Part shown: piece by piece, positions 50,381 to 56,746 of the stretch
Layout: the number at the start of each line of letters is the position of its first letter
How positions within the stretch are numbered: the stretch's first letter is position 1
NCBI RefSeq assembly: GCF_022750545.1
Contig: NZ_PUIC01000010.1
Coordinates: forward strand, 100,548-164,547
Direction of reading: 5' to 3'
Length of the DNA stretch: 64,000 nucleotides
Source: Caulobacter sp. CCUG 60055
Lineage (GTDB): Bacteria; Pseudomonadota; Alphaproteobacteria; Caulobacterales; Caulobacteraceae
Program-made: the position numbers and the translations under genes
Notes under the pieces: model-generated
Seen by the model: only the letters and a program-made list of their open reading frames with translations
What the model was told of the DNA's origin: nothing
Database searches by the model: none

Positions 50381-51574
50381 ATGATTGCCGACGTGGTCGA
50401 CGTCGAGGAGTTGCTGAGCCGGGCGAATGCGGCCTTGGCGCGGCGGGACGCGGACGCGGCGCTCGACATCCTGCGGCGAGCCGAGCGCGCCGCGCCCCGC
50501 GACGTGAATGTCCGCCTCAATATCGCCCTGGCCTTGCGCCTGCGCGGCGATCTGCCGGCGGCTCTGGCCGCGCTGGACGCCGCCCTGGAGATCGAGCCCT
50601 ACCTGTTCATCGCGCTGCTTTCGAAAGGCGCGATCCTCGAGCGGATGGGGCTGATCCGCGCGGCGGCGTCGATCTACAAGGACGCGCTGACCATCGCGCC
50701 GTCGCCGGACAAGACGCCGCCGGGGCTGGCGCAGCCGTTGGCGCGGGCGCGTCAGGTGGTGGCCGAGAACGCCGAGGCGTTGCGGGCGTTCATGGCCGGG
50801 CAGGTGGACGCGGTGCGTTCCAGGCACGCGCATGCGGCGCAGCGCCGTTTCGACGAGGCGCTCGACCTGTTCGCCGGCCGCAAGCGCGTGTACCAGCCCC
50901 AGCCCCTGCTGATGCATTTTCCAGGCCTGCCGGTGGTGCAGTTCTTCGACCGGGAGCTGTTCCCTTGGCTGCCCCGGTTGGAGGCGGCCACGGACATGAT
51001 CCGCGACGAGCTGGCCGCCCTGGTCTCGACCGGGGGCATGGACCGGTTCGCGCCCTATATCGCCTATCCGCCGGGCGCGCCGGTCAACCAGTGGGAGGAG
51101 CTCAACCACTCCCGCAAATGGAGCTCGCTCTGGCTGTGGCGGGACGGCGCGCGGCAGGACGAGATCTGCGACCTGTGTCCCGGTACGGCGGCGCTGTTGG
51201 AAAGCCTGCCGATGGCGGACCAGCCCGGCTTCGCGCCCACGGCGGTGTTTTCCGCCCTGCAGCCGCGCACGCATATTCCGGCCCATACGGGCTCGACCAA
51301 CGCGCGGCTGTTGACCCACCTGCCGCTGATCCTGCCGGGGCCGGCCCGCTTCCGGGTCGGCAACGACGAGCGTCCCTGGCGCATGGGCGAGGCTTGGGTG
51401 TTCGACGACACCATCGAGCACGAAGCCTGGAACGACGCCGACGAGACCCGCGTTATCCTGATCTTCGACGTATGGAACCCTTATCTGTCGGAGGCCGAGC
51501 GGGAGATGGTCGGGGCGATGATGGCCGCCCGCAACGCCTTCTACGCCGCCGAGTCGGGCGCCGGTCCGACGTAG
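50381..51574 (+). CDS. TPR protein with C-terminal aspartyl/asparaginyl beta-hydroxylase domain
   Basis: The 397 residues split into a TPR-like N-terminus (about 8-105, with repeats such as LDILRRAERAAPRDVNVRLNIALAL) and a 2-oxoglutarate/Fe(II) dioxygenase of the aspartyl/asparaginyl hydroxylase family. Iron ligands are His302 (HTGSTN) and His347 (DDTIEHEAWN), and Arg357 is placed to bind 2-oxoglutarate. Such enzymes hydroxylate protein side chains or lipid A in other bacteria; the substrate here is unknown. The start is ATG 50381; the open frame further upstream is shadow. Its end overlaps the convergent HTH-citrate synthase gene by 34 bases. Confidence 0.85.
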   Translation: MIADVVDVEELLSRANAALARRDADAALDILRRAERAAPRDVNVRLNIALALRLRGDLPAALAALDAALEIEPYLFIALLSKGAILERMGLIRAAASIYKDALTIAPSPDKTPPGLAQPLARARQVVAENAEALRAFMAGQVDAVRSRHAHAAQRRFDEALDLFAGRKRVYQPQPLLMHFPGLPVVQFFDRELFPWLPRLEAATDMIRDELAALVSTGGMDRFAPYIAYPPGAPVNQWEELNHSRKWSSLWLWRDGARQDEICDLCPGTAALLESLPMADQPGFAPTAVFSALQPRTHIPAHTGSTNARLLTHLPLILPGPARFRVGNDERPWRMGEAWVFDDTIEHEAWNDADETRVILIFDVWNPYLSEAEREMVGAMMAARNAFYAAESGAGPT

Positions 51575-52692
51575 CGGGCGCGGGGGCGGATCAGGCGTCC
51601 GGCGGCGACCTGCTCCAGGGCGTGGGCCAGCCAGCCGGCGCAGCGGCCGGTCGCGAACAGCAGGAAGGGCGCCTCGGGCGGCAGGTCCAGCCGTTCGGCG
51701 AGGGCGGTCAGCGCGAAATCGATGTTGGGGGGCTCGCCGGTCAGGGCGGCGACGGCGGCCTCGGTCTCGGCGAACAGCGGCGGCGGCGCGAAGGCGTCGA
51801 GCAGGGCGCGGGCGCACGGATCGCCTTCGGGATAGAGCGGATGGCCGAAGCCGGGGATCGGCAGGGCCTGGTCCTGGCGCGCGGCGATGGCGCGATGGGG
51901 GCCGCGGCGGCTGACCTCGTCCATGAAGGCCTGGACCCTGGCCGCCATGCCGCCATGCAGCGGGCCGGACAGGGCGGCCAGTCCCGCCAGGGCGGCGGCG
52001 GCCAGCGAGGCGCCGGTCGAGGCGGCCACCCGCGCCGCGAAGGTCGAGGCGTTGAGCTCGTGGTCGGCCAGCAGCACCAGGGCGCGGCGGATCAGATCCG
52101 CGCCGTCCTCGCCGCAGCCGCCGGATCGGGCCAGCCTCTGGTGTATGCGGCCGACCCCGGGGGCCCCGGCCACGGCGTCGGCGAGGCCGTCGAGCAGGCT
52201 GGCGGCCTCGGCGTGCAGGACGTCCGGCGCGCGGCGGCGGGCCGGCGGATCGGCGGCGGCCCGCGCGGCCAGGCTGGCGAACATGCGGGCGCGCGGGTCG
52301 CGACCGTCCGGGATCGGACCAGGCCGGCGGTCGAACGGATCGACGGCGGCGCCCCACAGGCGGGCGGCGACGGCCTCCAGCGTCTCCCGCCCGGCCAGCG
52401 CTGCCGCGTCCTCGCCGCGATAATAGAGCCTGCCGTGCGATACGGTGGTGATGGCCGACGGCAGCACCGGCTCGCCCCAGGCGATCGCCTCCTCGGCCAC
52501 GGCGGCGGCGGCCCGGCCGCGCGCCTTGCGCCGGGCCAGCCGCTCGATGTCGGCGGCCCGATAGACGCTCTTGCGCGGATCGTCGTCCCGGGCGCGAGCC
52601 TCGACGCGGCCGCGGCTGACATAGGCGTAGAGGGTCTGCGGCCGCACCCCCAGCGCCTCCATCGCCTGTTTCGCCGTCAGCCAGTCGGTCAT
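51541..52692 (-). CDS. HTH domain fused to a citrate synthase domain
   Basis: The 383 residues begin with an excisionase/MerR-like helix-turn-helix (TAKQAMEALGVRPQTLYAYVSRGRVEARA to about residue 57), then a citrate synthase domain from about residue 75. All three catalytic residues of citrate synthase are kept: His246 (GPLHGG), His284 (GFGHPLYP) and Asp325 (NIDF), and the substrate His211 (HELNAS) is present. It is about 60 residues shorter than GltA-type enzymes, as in archaeal-type synthases. It is read away from a paralogous citrate synthase. A transcription factor sensing acetyl-CoA or oxaloacetate, or an active enzyme that also binds DNA, are both possible. Confidence 0.85.
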   Translation of the reverse strand: MTDWLTAKQAMEALGVRPQTLYAYVSRGRVEARARDDDPRKSVYRAADIERLARRKARGRAAAAVAEEAIAWGEPVLPSAITTVSHGRLYYRGEDAAALAGRETLEAVAARLWGAAVDPFDRRPGPIPDGRDPRARMFASLAARAAADPPARRRAPDVLHAEAASLLDGLADAVAGAPGVGRIHQRLARSGGCGEDGADLIRRALVLLADHELNASTFAARVAASTGASLAAAALAGLAALSGPLHGGMAARVQAFMDEVSRRGPHRAIAARQDQALPIPGFGHPLYPEGDPCARALLDAFAPPPLFAETEAAVAALTGEPPNIDFALTALAERLDLPPEAPFLLFATGRCAGWLAHALEQVAAGRLIRPRARYVGPAPDSAA

Positions 52693-52700
52693 GTCGATAT

Positions 52701-52726
52701 ATTGATTAGATTGATCAAGATTGACG
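52701..52726. repeat. Three phased ATTGA repeats between the divergent citrate synthase genes
   Basis: ATTGA(T/C) occurs at 52701, 52710 and 52720 in the same orientation, spaced 9 and 10 bases, one helical turn each. It is an A+T-rich island in G+C-rich DNA within the 83-base gap between the two divergent genes, 9 to 34 bases upstream of the HTH-citrate synthase ATG. Same-face repeats are typical of cooperative regulator binding; the HTH protein itself is the obvious candidate. Confidence 0.5.
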
Positions 52727-52775
52727 ATAGCGGAGCGTGCGCCGATCTCAAGGGAAACCTTCGAGGAGAACTCCG

Positions 52776-53870
52776 ATGTCTGATGGTCTGGAAGGCGTCG
52801 TCGCCGCCGAAACCGTGCTGTCCGAGGTCGACGGGGCCGCCGGCCGCCTGGTGATCCGCGGCCGCTCCCTCGACCAGCTCGCCGGCCGCGTCAGTTTCGA
52901 GGAGACCGCGCGGCTGCTGTTCGACGGCTTCTTCGACGACCTGCCGGCGCTCGAAGGGTTCGCCCGCGACCTCGGCCGCGCCCGCGCCGCCGTGTTCGCC
53001 GAGGTCGCCGCCCTGGACGCGCGCCTGCTCGACCGGCCGCCGATCGAGGTTGTGCGCGCCTTGCTGGCCCGGCTCGCCGACGGCGACGATCTGGCGACGG
53101 CCTACGCCCTGCTGGCCGCGCCCGCGGTGTTCGCCGCCGCGGCGGCGCGGGCGCGCCGGGGCCTGGCGCCCGTGGCGCCGGACCCGTCCCTGGGGCACGC
53201 CGCCGACGTGCTGCGCATGTTCCGGGACGCCCCCGCGAGCGCGGCCGAGGCCGCCGGTCTCGACGCCTATCTGACCACCGTCAGCGACCATGGCCTCAAC
53301 GCCTCCACCTTCGCGGCGCGGGTGACCGCCTCGACCCGGGCCGGCCTGACCTCGGCCGTCATCTCCGGCCTCAGCGCCCTGAAGGGACCGCTGCACGGCG
53401 GCGCGCCCGGTCCGGTGATCGACATGCTCGACGCCATCGGCCGGCCGGAGGACGCCTTCGCCTGGCTCGACGCGGCGGTGGCGCGGGGCGACCGGCTGAT
53501 GGGCTTCGGCCATCGCATCTACCGGGTGCGCGACCCCCGCGCCGACGCGCTCAAGCAGGCTGTGCGGACGCTGGGAGAGAGCCGCGAGCTCGCGTCCGGC
53601 CGGCTGGCCCTGGCCGAGGCGGTGGAGGCGGCGGCCCTGGCCATCCTCAAGGCGCGCAAGCCCGACCGGCCGCTGCAGACCAATGTCGAATTTTACACCG
53701 CCCTGCTGCTGGAGGCGCTGGGCTTTCCGCCGGACGTCTTCACCTGCGTGTTCGCGATGGGGCGGACGGCCGGCTGGATCGCCCACGCCCGCGAACAGGT
53801 CGCCGGCGGCCGCCTGATCCGTCCGCAATCGGTCTATGTCGGTCCGGCGCCGGAAGCCCAGGCCGCTTGA
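52776..53870 (+). CDS. Citrate synthase/methylcitrate synthase family protein
   Basis: This 364-residue short-type synthase would condense an acyl-CoA with oxaloacetate. His172 (DHGLNAS), His207 (GPLHGG) and His246 (GFGHRIY) are conserved, but the catalytic Asp is Glu305 (NVEFY). Some actinobacterial-type members seem to share this. The C-terminal region GRLIRPQSVYVGPAPEAQAA is nearly the same as in the divergent HTH fusion, so the two are paralogues. The ATG at 52776 has a GAGGAGAA site upstream. Either 2-methylcitrate or citrate may be the product. Confidence 0.88.
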   Translation: MSDGLEGVVAAETVLSEVDGAAGRLVIRGRSLDQLAGRVSFEETARLLFDGFFDDLPALEGFARDLGRARAAVFAEVAALDARLLDRPPIEVVRALLARLADGDDLATAYALLAAPAVFAAAAARARRGLAPVAPDPSLGHAADVLRMFRDAPASAAEAAGLDAYLTTVSDHGLNASTFAARVTASTRAGLTSAVISGLSALKGPLHGGAPGPVIDMLDAIGRPEDAFAWLDAAVARGDRLMGFGHRIYRVRDPRADALKQAVRTLGESRELASGRLALAEAVEAAALAILKARKPDRPLQTNVEFYTALLLEALGFPPDVFTCVFAMGRTAGWIAHAREQVAGGRLIRPQSVYVGPAPEAQAA

Positions 53871-53975: not shown

Positions 53976-54944
53976 ATGACCGCGCCCAGCCTGTCCGTCG
54001 CCGAGACCGCCGCCCTGACCCGTCGCATCACCACCTTGTCGGTGGTCGTGGCGGTGGCGCTGATCCTGCTCAAGGGCGGGGTGTGGCTGGTCAGCGGTTC
54101 GGTCGCCCTCCTGGCCTCGCTCGCCGATTCGGGGCTGGACCTCGTGGCCTCGCTGATCACCTTCTTCGCTGTGCGCTATGCGGCGGCCCCCCCCGACGCC
54201 GAACACCGCTTCGGCCATGGCAAGGCCGAGGCCTTCGCCAGCCTGATCCAGGGCGGGCTGGTGTTCGCCTCGGCGGCGCTGATCGGCCAGGAGGCCGTCC
54301 GCCGCATCATCGACCCCGCGCCGATCGCGGCCGAGGGCTGGGGCGTGGCGGTAATGGCGGCCTCGATCGTCATCACCGGCGTGCTGATCGCCGCCCAGTC
54401 GCGGGTGCTGCGCCAGACGGGTTCGGTGGCGGTCTCAGGGGATCGCGCCCACTACGCCGCCGACCTCGCCTCGAACCTCGTCGCCATGGTCGGCATCGGC
54501 GCGGCGGCCCTGTTCAAGGCCCCGGTGCTGGACGCGGTCGCCGGCCTCGCCGTCGCCGGCTGGCTGGTCTGGGGGGCGGTCGGGGTGTTCCGCGAAGCCT
54601 CTCTGCAGCTGATGGACCACGAACTGCCGGACGACGCGCGCGGGCGCATCGTCGACCTGATGACCTCGGACGCGCGCATCAAGGGCGTGCACCAGCTGCG
54701 CACCCGCGCGTCTGGACCCTATGTCCACATCCAGATGCACGCCGACCTCGACCCGAATCTCAGCCTGCGCGAGGCCCATCAGGCGATCGTCGCCGCCGAG
54801 AACCGGGTGCTGGAGGCCTTTCCCGCCGCCGACATCATCATCCATCCCGACCCGCGCGGCTTCGCCGAACCGCACGGCGGCGCCTTCGCCGAGACGGGCC
54901 ACGCGCCGGCCGCGGCTGAAGCTGTTGAAAACGCGAGGTCTTGA
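53976..54944 (+). CDS. Cation diffusion facilitator family metal transporter
   Basis: This 322-residue inner-membrane divalent-metal/proton antiporter of the FieF type has six membrane helices. The tetrahedral metal site is visible as Asp51 and Asp55 in helix II (ASLADSGLDL) and His159 and Asp163 in helix V (RAHYAADL), a D-D/H-D set expected for zinc or iron(II). HRFGHGKAEAFASL is the cytoplasmic loop signature, and a C-terminal metallochaperone-like domain with HQLRTRASGPYVHIQMH follows. Its own palindromic operator candidate lies upstream at 53916. Confidence 0.93.
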   Translation: MTAPSLSVAETAALTRRITTLSVVVAVALILLKGGVWLVSGSVALLASLADSGLDLVASLITFFAVRYAAAPPDAEHRFGHGKAEAFASLIQGGLVFASAALIGQEAVRRIIDPAPIAAEGWGVAVMAASIVITGVLIAAQSRVLRQTGSVAVSGDRAHYAADLASNLVAMVGIGAAALFKAPVLDAVAGLAVAGWLVWGAVGVFREASLQLMDHELPDDARGRIVDLMTSDARIKGVHQLRTRASGPYVHIQMHADLDPNLSLREAHQAIVAAENRVLEAFPAADIIIHPDPRGFAEPHGGAFAETGHAPAAAEAVENARS

Positions 54945-55020
54945 GGCCGGGTAAACGCCGCCTTAAGAGGTCCTGGATCTATTGGCCGATCACCCCAACC
55001 AAGGATCCAGCACGGCGCGG

Positions 55021-55707
55021 ATGTCCGTCGAACGCACCCTCCACCATTTTCCGCTCGACCCGGCCTCGCGTCAGGTGCGCCTCGCCCTGGGCGAAAAGCG
55101 GCTGCCTTTCGCCGAAATCCAGGAGCGGGTGTGGGAGCAGCGGCCGGAATGGCTGGCGCTCAACCCGTCGGGCCTGACGCCGGTGCTGGTCGAACAGCGC
55201 AACGGCGAGAAGGTGGTGGTCTGCGAGGGGCGGGCGGTGCTCGAGCACCTCGAGGAGACCGCGCCCGAGCCGGCGCTGCTGGGCCGGACGGCGGCCGAGC
55301 GGGCCGAGACGCGGCGGCTGCTGCAATGGTTCGACCGCAAGTTCGACGGCGAGGTCAACGGCTTCCTCCTCTATGAAAAGATGGAGAAGCGCCTGATGGG
55401 CCTGGGCGCGCCCGACCTGTCGGGACTGCGGCGCGGCCGCGAGGCGCTTAAGACGCACCTGGCCTATGTCGAGACCCTGCTGGCGGACCGCGACTGGCTG
55501 GCGGGGCGGCGGCTCAGCCTGGCCGATTTCGCCGCCGCGGCCCACATCTCGGTGATCGACTATTTCGGCGACGTGCCCTGGCGCGACTTTTCCATCGCCA
55601 AGACCTGGTACATGAAGATCAAGTCGCGCCCTTGCTTCCGGCCGCTCCTGGCCGACCGTTGGCCCGGCATGCCGCCGGCCGGCCATTATGACGACCTCGA
55701 CTTCTGA
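55021..55707 (+). CDS. fzlA: FtsZ-binding GST-like division protein FzlA
   Basis: This 228-residue GST-fold protein matches Caulobacter FzlA in length, in the N-terminal [20 protein letters not shown] pattern, in the central [13 protein letters not shown] segment and in its C-terminus ([11 protein letters not shown]). FzlA binds FtsZ filaments and is essential for constriction in Caulobacter. The start ATG 55021 begins the family sequence; an in-frame codon at 54982 would add 13 residues without support. It overlaps queG by 20 bases. A plain glutathione transferase is the alternative, but the C-terminal tail favours FzlA. Confidence 0.8.
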
Positions 55708-56746
55708 CGACCTGAAGGACCGCATCCGCGCCCAGGCGGCGACCCTGGGATTCGACGTCTGCGGCTTCGCCTCGGCCAGCGAGCCGTGGCCGGCGTCCGG
55801 GCGGCTGGCCGAATTCATCGAAAAGGGCCGGCACGGCGACATGGCCTGGATGGCCGAGACCGTCGAGCGGCGCGCCCACCCCCAGGCGATGTGGGCCGCG
55901 GCCCGCTCGGCCCTGGTGCTGGGCGTCAATTACGGCCCGGAGGTCGATCCCCTGGCGGCGCTGGAGGACCGCAGCCGCGCGGCGATCTCGGTCTACGCCC
56001 AGGGCGACGACTATCACGACGTCATCAAGAAGCGGCTCAAGGCGCTGGCCCGCTGGCTGGTCGAGGCCGAGGGCTGCGAGCTGAAGGTGTTCGTCGACAC
56101 CGCGCCGCTGATGGAGAAACCTCTGGCCCAGAAGGCCGGACTCGGCTGGCAGGGCAAGCACACCAACCTGGTGTCGCGGCGGTTCGGGTCATGGCTGTTC
56201 CTGGGGGCGATCCTGGTCACGCTGGAGATCGCGCCCGACGCGGCCGAGGGCGATCATTGCGGAGTCTGCCGGGCCTGCCTGGACATCTGCCCGACCGGGG
56301 CCTTCCCCGCGCCCTACCAGCTCGACGCCCGGGCGTGCATCTCCTACCTGACCATCGAGCACGCCGGGCCGGTGCCGCACCGCTACCGCGCCGCCCTCGG
56401 CAACCGCATCTACGGCTGCGACGACTGCCTGGCCGTCTGTCCCTGGAACAAGTTCGCCAAGGCGGGCCAGGAGGCCAAGCTGCAGGCGCGCCAGGTCCTG
56501 CGCGGCGCTTCGCTGGCCGAACTGGCGGTGTTGGATGACGCCGGCTTCCGGGCGTTGTTCTCCAAGAGCCCGATCAAGCGCATCGGCCGCGACCGCTTCG
56601 TGCGCAACGTGCTCTACGCCATCGGCAATTCCGGCGACCCGGCGCTGGCGGCCTCGGCGGCGACGCTGCTCGACGATCCGTCCGAGGTGGTGCGCGACGC
56701 GGCGCGCTGGGCGGTGGAGCGGCTGGAGCCCGCCGCTCAGGCGTAG
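55688..56746 (+). CDS. queG: Epoxyqueuosine reductase
   Basis: This 352-residue cobalamin-dependent enzyme makes queuosine from epoxyqueuosine in tRNA. Two [4Fe-4S] cluster regions are visible as [16 protein letters not shown] and [11 protein letters not shown] with cysteines between them (RACISY), and the [19 protein letters not shown] segment is typical. A HEAT-like tail follows. The ATG lies inside the fzlA end (20-base overlap), so the two are translationally linked. Its end overlaps the convergent epimerase gene by 10 bases. Confidence 0.95.

Follow-up and report, generated by a model that had tools for sequence, protein, structure and literature searches.

A helix-turn-helix/citrate synthase fusion divergent from a citrate synthase gene in Caulobacter as a probable self-regulating, carboxylate-sensing transcription factor

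The 64,000-nucleotide stretch of contig NZ_PUIC01000010.1 of Caulobacter sp. CCUG 60055 (positions 100,548 to 164,547), referred to here as the window, carries a divergent pair of genes, one coding for a citrate synthase domain fused to a helix-turn-helix (HTH) domain and the other for a stand-alone short citrate synthase. The fusion is most probably a local, self-regulating transcription factor, in which a former citrate synthase serves as the carboxylate sensor. The domains, the operator, the operator specificity, the synteny and the co-loss described below were computed. The first-pass annotation of the window had proposed an enzyme-turned-regulator, which reads acyl-coenzyme A (acyl-CoA) or oxaloacetate levels and controls its paralogue. 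The regulatory part of this proposal is strongly supported by a genome-unique conserved operator, by the synteny and by the joint loss of the partner gene, the operator and the catalytic residues, whereas the acyl-CoA ligand is not. The pair and its operator are located as follows:

51541-52692, minus strand: HTH-citrate synthase fusion of 383 amino acids with an ATG start; the proposed regulator and probable orthologue of Caulobacter crescentus CitC.
52702-52724, plus strand: conserved putative operator TTGATTAGATTGATCAAGATTGA, composed of the inverted repeat TTGAT-N7-ATCAA (52702-52718) plus ATTGA.
52776-53870, plus strand: stand-alone short citrate synthase of 364 amino acids, of the NF009005/CitA type; probable CitB orthologue with Glu305 at the catalytic Asp position.

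The two genes had been reported to read away from each other over an 83-bp gap (52693-52775), and their coordinates, strands and lengths were all borne out, the stand-alone gene starting with ATG at 52776 and stopping at 53870. In the fusion, Pfam assigns HTH_17 to residues 4-56 (30.0 bits, cutoff 27) and Citrate_synt to residues 193-371 (182 bits). The stand-alone enzyme reaches 327 bits with Citrate_synt and 443 bits with NF009005 (cutoff 332), which makes it a member of the latter family. Both proteins share 35% identity across 351 aligned columns, and the common stretches LNASTFAARV and GRLIRP..YVGPAP pointed out earlier are real. Three places in the genome (4.09 Mb, 27 contigs) match PF00285, namely the two genes of the pair and a gene for a GltA-like enzyme on contig 1; therefore, the pair is additional to the normal enzyme of the tricarboxylic acid (TCA) cycle. 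As in one-component regulators, a DNA-binding domain is joined to a ligand-type domain, and a conserved operator is tied to the regulator gene.

The operator pattern TTGAT-N7-ATCAA-N-ATTGA was found by side-by-side reading of the divergent gaps. The copy at 52702-52724 has 0 mismatches and is the only site with two or fewer mismatches in the genome. The survey covered 119 Caulobacteraceae genomes and 398 genomes drawn across Pseudomonadota, and 80 regions of about 15 kb together with 9 named loci were examined, giving 89 fusion loci. Nearly all paired loci carry the operator with 0-1 mismatches, compared with means of about 5.5-7.8 in shuffled gaps. Exact copies number 50 in the 398 Pseudomonadota genomes, and 40 of them are found 2-69 bp before the start of a fusion gene, invariably in one orientation, with a citrate synthase, prpB or a family-III CoA-transferase as the divergent gene. 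Nine of the ten other copies come from genomes without a detected fusion, and those inspected fell inside open reading frames. The tenth (genome G434) precedes a 2-hydroxyacid dehydrogenase gene, and the fusion located 2.9 kb away has no site at its own promoter; here, operator-like sites with 0 and 1 mismatch (L162, 3996-4018 and 4166-4188) lie before this gene and a gene for a short-chain dehydrogenase.

A fusion usually located far from any citrate synthase gene would speak against the proposed control of the paralogue; instead, an NF009005-type citrate synthase is divergently adjacent in 51 of the 89 fusion loci. The fusion is present in 50 of the 398 Pseudomonadota genomes, and most of the Caulobacteraceae genera with a close relative of it also have the divergent citrate synthase at the same position. 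In several of the remaining loci, the operator is followed by prp, CoA-transferase or dehydrogenase genes. Outside Caulobacteraceae, some solo fusions face prpB (over the cutoff in L126 and L129), which in L129 is followed by prpC and acnD, while in L134 prpF adjoins the fusion; the same prp layout was read by eye in L127 and L136. Others face a family-III CoA-transferase (L121, L123, L125 and, by eye, L128) or a D-2-hydroxyacid dehydrogenase (L118 and, by eye, L122). The operator has 0 mismatches at all five of these prp loci (L126, L127, L129, L134, L136) and at the four CoA-transferase loci.

A further target is suggested by the operator scan of Caulobacteraceae, in which up to 1 mismatch was allowed. 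Of 26 genomes that combine DUF2332 with a paired fusion, 15 have a second copy 47-89 bp before the DUF2332 gene, whereas none of the 19 genomes with DUF2332 and no paired fusion has one (p = 2e-5, a guide only, as the genomes are related). The family assignment was made with Pfam scores of 301-340 bits in three examples. DUF2332 thus appears to be a second regulon member of the fusion in Caulobacteraceae. A literature search for DUF2332 among open-access papers found no paper, and the operator gives this family a functional lead. The genes concerned are:

G000:C1:545872-546903 (L168): DUF2332 gene of the present genome, with a degenerate site of 3 mismatches.
L150-L157, L164, L165, L167: Caulobacteraceae DUF2332 genes preceded by the operator.

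The counterpart of this conservation is the joint loss of the components. In the Caulobacteraceae genera g3, g14 and some others, the fusion directly faces CDF-fzlA-queG, with the citrate synthase missing exactly there, and most of the fusions without a citrate synthase at this locus have lost triad residues and the operator. The loci L089-L108 hold full-length fusions facing CDF/fzlA, in which other residues stand at the catalytic positions (for example, Leu for His and Ser for Asp); these are possible pseudoenzyme regulators. Across 87 fusion loci, an intact triad occurs with the operator in 59 cases and without it in 5, and a broken triad with the operator in 2 and without it in 21. The joint loss appears in more than one lineage. 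Since the target, the site and the ligand residues are lost together, the pattern fits a regulator and not a plain duplicate enzyme. It is unlikely that the solo, triad-less fusions are decaying pseudogenes, uninformative on function: the loss of catalytic residues and operator would agree with decay, but full-length frames with the HTH persist at one locus in many species from several genera, and this speaks for a role that was altered rather than lost.

The ligand is approached through the residues of the citrate-synthase-fold domain:

51544-52467, minus strand: citrate-synthase-fold domain, residues 76-383, with His246, His284, Asp325, Arg350, Arg369, Pro288 and Cys293.
51814-51816, minus strand: TGC codon of Cys293, a position held by Arg in 50 of 51 paired fusions.

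In the citrate synthase MsCS, the catalytic residues are His214, His253 and Asp307, and the substrate is bound by Arg262, Arg332 and Arg351' (PMC6386500). The retention of His246, His284 and Asp325, which the first-pass annotation had noticed, was confirmed by alignment, and these residues form the catalytic triad. The paired fusions keep His, His and Asp in 51, 49 and 51 of 51 cases; the third position is Glu305 in the stand-alone citrate synthase and likewise Glu in all 51 partner enzymes examined. From the three substrate-binding arginines of an active citrate synthase, Arg350 and Arg369 are kept, and the third is Cys293, found in this genome only; Arg is present at this place in 50 of 51 paired fusions, in 51 of 51 partners and in GltA. 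The Pro288 column was considered as the oxaloacetate-binding Arg (pig R329) and rejected, as the equivalent is Cys293 (H+9), confirmed by the MsCS pair His253/Arg262. This column, H+4 (Pro288 here), holds Pro in 47 of 51 fusions and a basic residue in the partners (Arg in 48 and Lys in 3 of 51) and in GltA. The segment between His284 and Asp325 comprises 40 residues in the fusion (47 in the prp group), in comparison with medians of 58 in the partners, 57 in GltA and 50 in PrpC. The CoA-side segment is therefore 10-18 residues short, and the small domain falls below the complete form of active citrate synthases. In pig citrate synthase, the stretch from the second His to Asp and the H+4 Arg (Arg324) contact CoA. 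As the triad and most of the substrate residues are kept and the CoA side is reduced, the pocket would fit a carboxylate, and not CoA in the usual manner. The shortened segment and Cys293 make a citrate-like acid the more likely ligand than an acyl-CoA. Binding of the oxaloacetate/citrate type is plausible from these residues, although weakened in this genome by Cys293.

The acyl-CoA variant of the sensor, i.e., a fusion regulator reading acetyl- or propionyl-CoA, was the ligand put forward by the first-pass annotation. All the target types (citrate synthase, the methylcitrate cycle, the CoA-transferases) are CoA-linked, which speaks for it. Nevertheless, this variant is unlikely, because the shortening affects the small domain, from which the acetyl-CoA pocket of citrate synthase is built (PMC6386500). 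The earlier suggestion that the fusion still binds acetyl-CoA is thus not supported, given the shortened CoA side and the failure of the probable C. crescentus orthologue to rescue a gltA mutant.

This orthologue also bears on the reading of the fusion as a trigger enzyme, which would have kept its citrate or 2-methylcitrate synthase activity and would additionally bind DNA, linking flux to expression. Berge et al. 2020 (PMC7083601) named the C. crescentus genes citB (CCNA_03757) and citC (CCNA_03758), and showed that an Escherichia coli gltA mutant is rescued by CitB and not by CitC. CitB was reported to be 37% identical to Bacillus subtilis CitA, CitC was treated as a paralogue without citrate synthase function, and the term "helix-turn-helix" is absent from the main text of that paper. 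On the basis of the adjacency and the identity figures, CitB and CitC are very probably the same two genes as the pair described here. A regulatory role of the fusion would explain why the "citrate synthase" CitC does not rescue the synthase mutant. A trigger enzyme would account for the almost complete triads of the paired fusions and for the oxaloacetate/citrate arginines, which are mostly kept. It is nonetheless very unlikely in view of the segment of 40-47 residues against the enzyme medians of 50-58, the replacement of the basic H+4 residue by Pro, Cys293 in this genome and the failed complementation by CitC. In addition, the fusion reaches no NCBIfam citrate synthase cutoff, the best being NF009005 with 148 of 332 bits.

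The position of the operator relative to the predicted promoters indicates how the fusion as a regulator could act:

52721-52726, plus strand: proposed -35 element TTGACG of the divergent citrate synthase promoter, overlapping the operator end.
52744-52749, plus strand: -10-like hexamer GATCTC at 17-bp spacing, weak in this species.

When 58 loci are aligned on the operator, conservation drops outside it. The best -10 match follows the TTGAYN at the operator end at a distance of exactly 17 bp, with a mean of 2.36 matches to TATAAT, while other spacers give 0.6-1.9; therefore, the repeat abuts the predicted -35 of the target gene. At the prp loci, the predicted promoter is TTGATC-N17-CAGATT. 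On the other strand, the repeat is located 2-23 bp from most fusion starts and contains TATAAT in many loci. On these predicted promoters, the operator placement is the layout of a divergent autoregulator. The DNA binding of the fusion, the use of the dimer, the ligand and the sign of regulation are inferred. The two HTH arms of a dimer of citrate synthase fold would bind the inverted repeat in the gap. The repeat covers the start region and the probable -10 of the fusion gene, so that the bound fusion should repress its own gene; it also reaches up to, or into, the -35 of the divergent citrate synthase, a gene which the bound fusion may thereby activate or repress. The sensor pocket would most likely serve to read a citrate-like carboxylate, be it citrate, 2-methylcitrate or oxaloacetate, and not to make citrate. 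That the 23-mer is merely a core promoter or leader element, with the fusion binding elsewhere or nowhere, would agree with its overlap with a TTGAY -35 at a 17-bp spacer, but is highly improbable: the 23-mer is a genome-unique inverted repeat, its recurrence before DUF2332 is confined to genomes carrying a paired fusion, in G434 it is placed at the target instead of the fusion, and its decay goes along with that of the fusion.

Several points weigh against the fusion as a carboxylate-sensing regulator. The catalytic residues are almost strictly kept in the paired fusions, a possible sign that the chemistry is retained. Cys293 weakens carboxylate binding in this genome. A few intact fusions have no site (L081, L084, L085). 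The triad/operator rows are not phylogenetically independent (Fitch parsimony counts six triad changes). Lastly, the equation of CitC with the fusion is drawn from adjacency and identity figures, and not from the sequence of CitC itself.

The origin of the pair was addressed with trees. The earlier statement that one paralogue arose from the other stands as ancient common descent only, since across the phylum the fusions and the partner enzymes form two separate monophyletic clades. A tree with a single GltA had placed the fusions beside PrpC, and was superseded after 28 more enzymes were added. In the enlarged tree, fusion plus NF009005 is split from PrpC plus GltA at 100%. The fusion is likely kin to the NF009005 enzymes, with the root of the tree left unplaced.

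Structure models are consistent with the domain assignment. The DNA-binding head is the following:

52525-52683, minus strand: winged HTH domain, residues 4-56 (HTH_17; Xis/MerR/BldC-like fold).

The AlphaFold2 model of the fusion has a predicted local distance difference test (pLDDT) score of 85.9, with a weak linker at 62-75, and the winged HTH model has a pLDDT of 85. The nearest solved fold of the modelled citrate synthase domain is Mycobacterium tuberculosis (Mtb) CitA (Z 33.7, 316 residues, 32% identity). The modelled HTH alone is closest to phage Xis (Z 7.4), followed by the MerR/BldC folds; this winged HTH fold is common, and the match is only supportive. None of the structure comparisons excludes a family.

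Downstream of the citrate synthase, the Caulobacteraceae locus is conserved (53976-56746), with a FieF-like CDF transporter, FzlA (NF050814, 378 bits) and queG:

53976-54944, plus strand: CDF cation-efflux transporter (FieF-like), located 3' of the citrate synthase in many Caulobacteraceae.

The transporter gene is possibly co-transcribed with the stand-alone citrate synthase, and FzlA is an FtsZ-binding, GST-like protein. The 3' end of the fusion overlaps by 34 bases (51541-51574) with the end of a convergent plus-strand open reading frame, which stops at 51574 and resembles a TPR/hydroxylase-type protein. Elsewhere, one fusion/citrate synthase pair was found in a metagenome-assembled genome labelled Anaerolineae (L011), and genome G097 has a second fusion copy (L081, G097:C1:1803144-1804280), with an intact triad and without the operator or a citrate synthase partner nearby.

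A broader proposition, for which we see even chances, is that phylum-wide, regulators made from citrate synthase sense citrate or 2-methylcitrate and control one or two operons each through one strictly conserved 23-base operator; genes for citrate synthase, the methylcitrate cycle, CoA-transferases and DUF2332 would all have come under this operator, and one lineage would have moved on to a catalytically dead sensor once its target was lost. With the fusion as a regulator, a core metabolic enzyme seems to have been remade as a metabolite-sensing switch, which would let bacteria sense TCA or methylcitrate intermediates directly at the level of the genes. The short, unique operator has a possible use in biosensors. 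Plasmid records label such fusions "citrate synthase family protein", and the genes so named in many genomes may encode regulators. No earlier description of a citrate-synthase-derived regulator was found in the open-access literature. The known enzyme-derived regulators include the aminotransferase-based MocR/GabR, BirA and PutA, but are not known to include a derivative of citrate synthase, the enzyme at the entry of the TCA cycle.

Among known systems, Mtb CitA is the nearest fold to the citrate synthase domain of the fusion, and the NF009005 citrate synthases are the family of the partner; in contrast to the fusion, these enzymes have no HTH and a complete small domain. The C. crescentus CitB/CitC pair likewise consists of adjacent, additional citrate synthases in the same bacterial family, CitB being an active citrate synthase and CitC not. 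The MerR-like CarH, GlnR/TnrA and BldC have a similar winged HTH fold (Z about 6-7), and CarH also has an enzyme-type cofactor domain; however, their sensor domains are unrelated to that of the fusion, whose Pfam scores lie below the MerR cutoffs (MerR_1 19.0 of 21.6 bits, MerR 16.6 of 28.2 bits), placing it outside that family. With respect to the PrpR regulators of the methylcitrate cycle, the fusion of the f46/f67 genomes takes the regulator position divergent from the prp genes. Unlike the fusion, classical PrpR is a sigma54 activator. Identity of Xanthomonas citri PrpR with the fusion was rejected on its differing published motif, GTTGCAA-N2-TTGCAAC (PMC12153269), the comparison being made by motif and not by sequence.

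By analogy, the closest regulatory logic is that of GabR/gabT. In the GabR/MocR family, an enzyme-derived effector domain, an aminotransferase, stands behind a winged HTH, and GabR controls the divergent gabT; the shared layout is a local, autoregulatory one, divergent from a related true enzyme. The fusion falls outside this family, having HTH_17 of the Xis/MerR-like type instead of a GntR-type HTH and Citrate_synt instead of the pyridoxal phosphate-dependent aminotransferase domain, and the likeness is one of analogy, with no common descent claimed.

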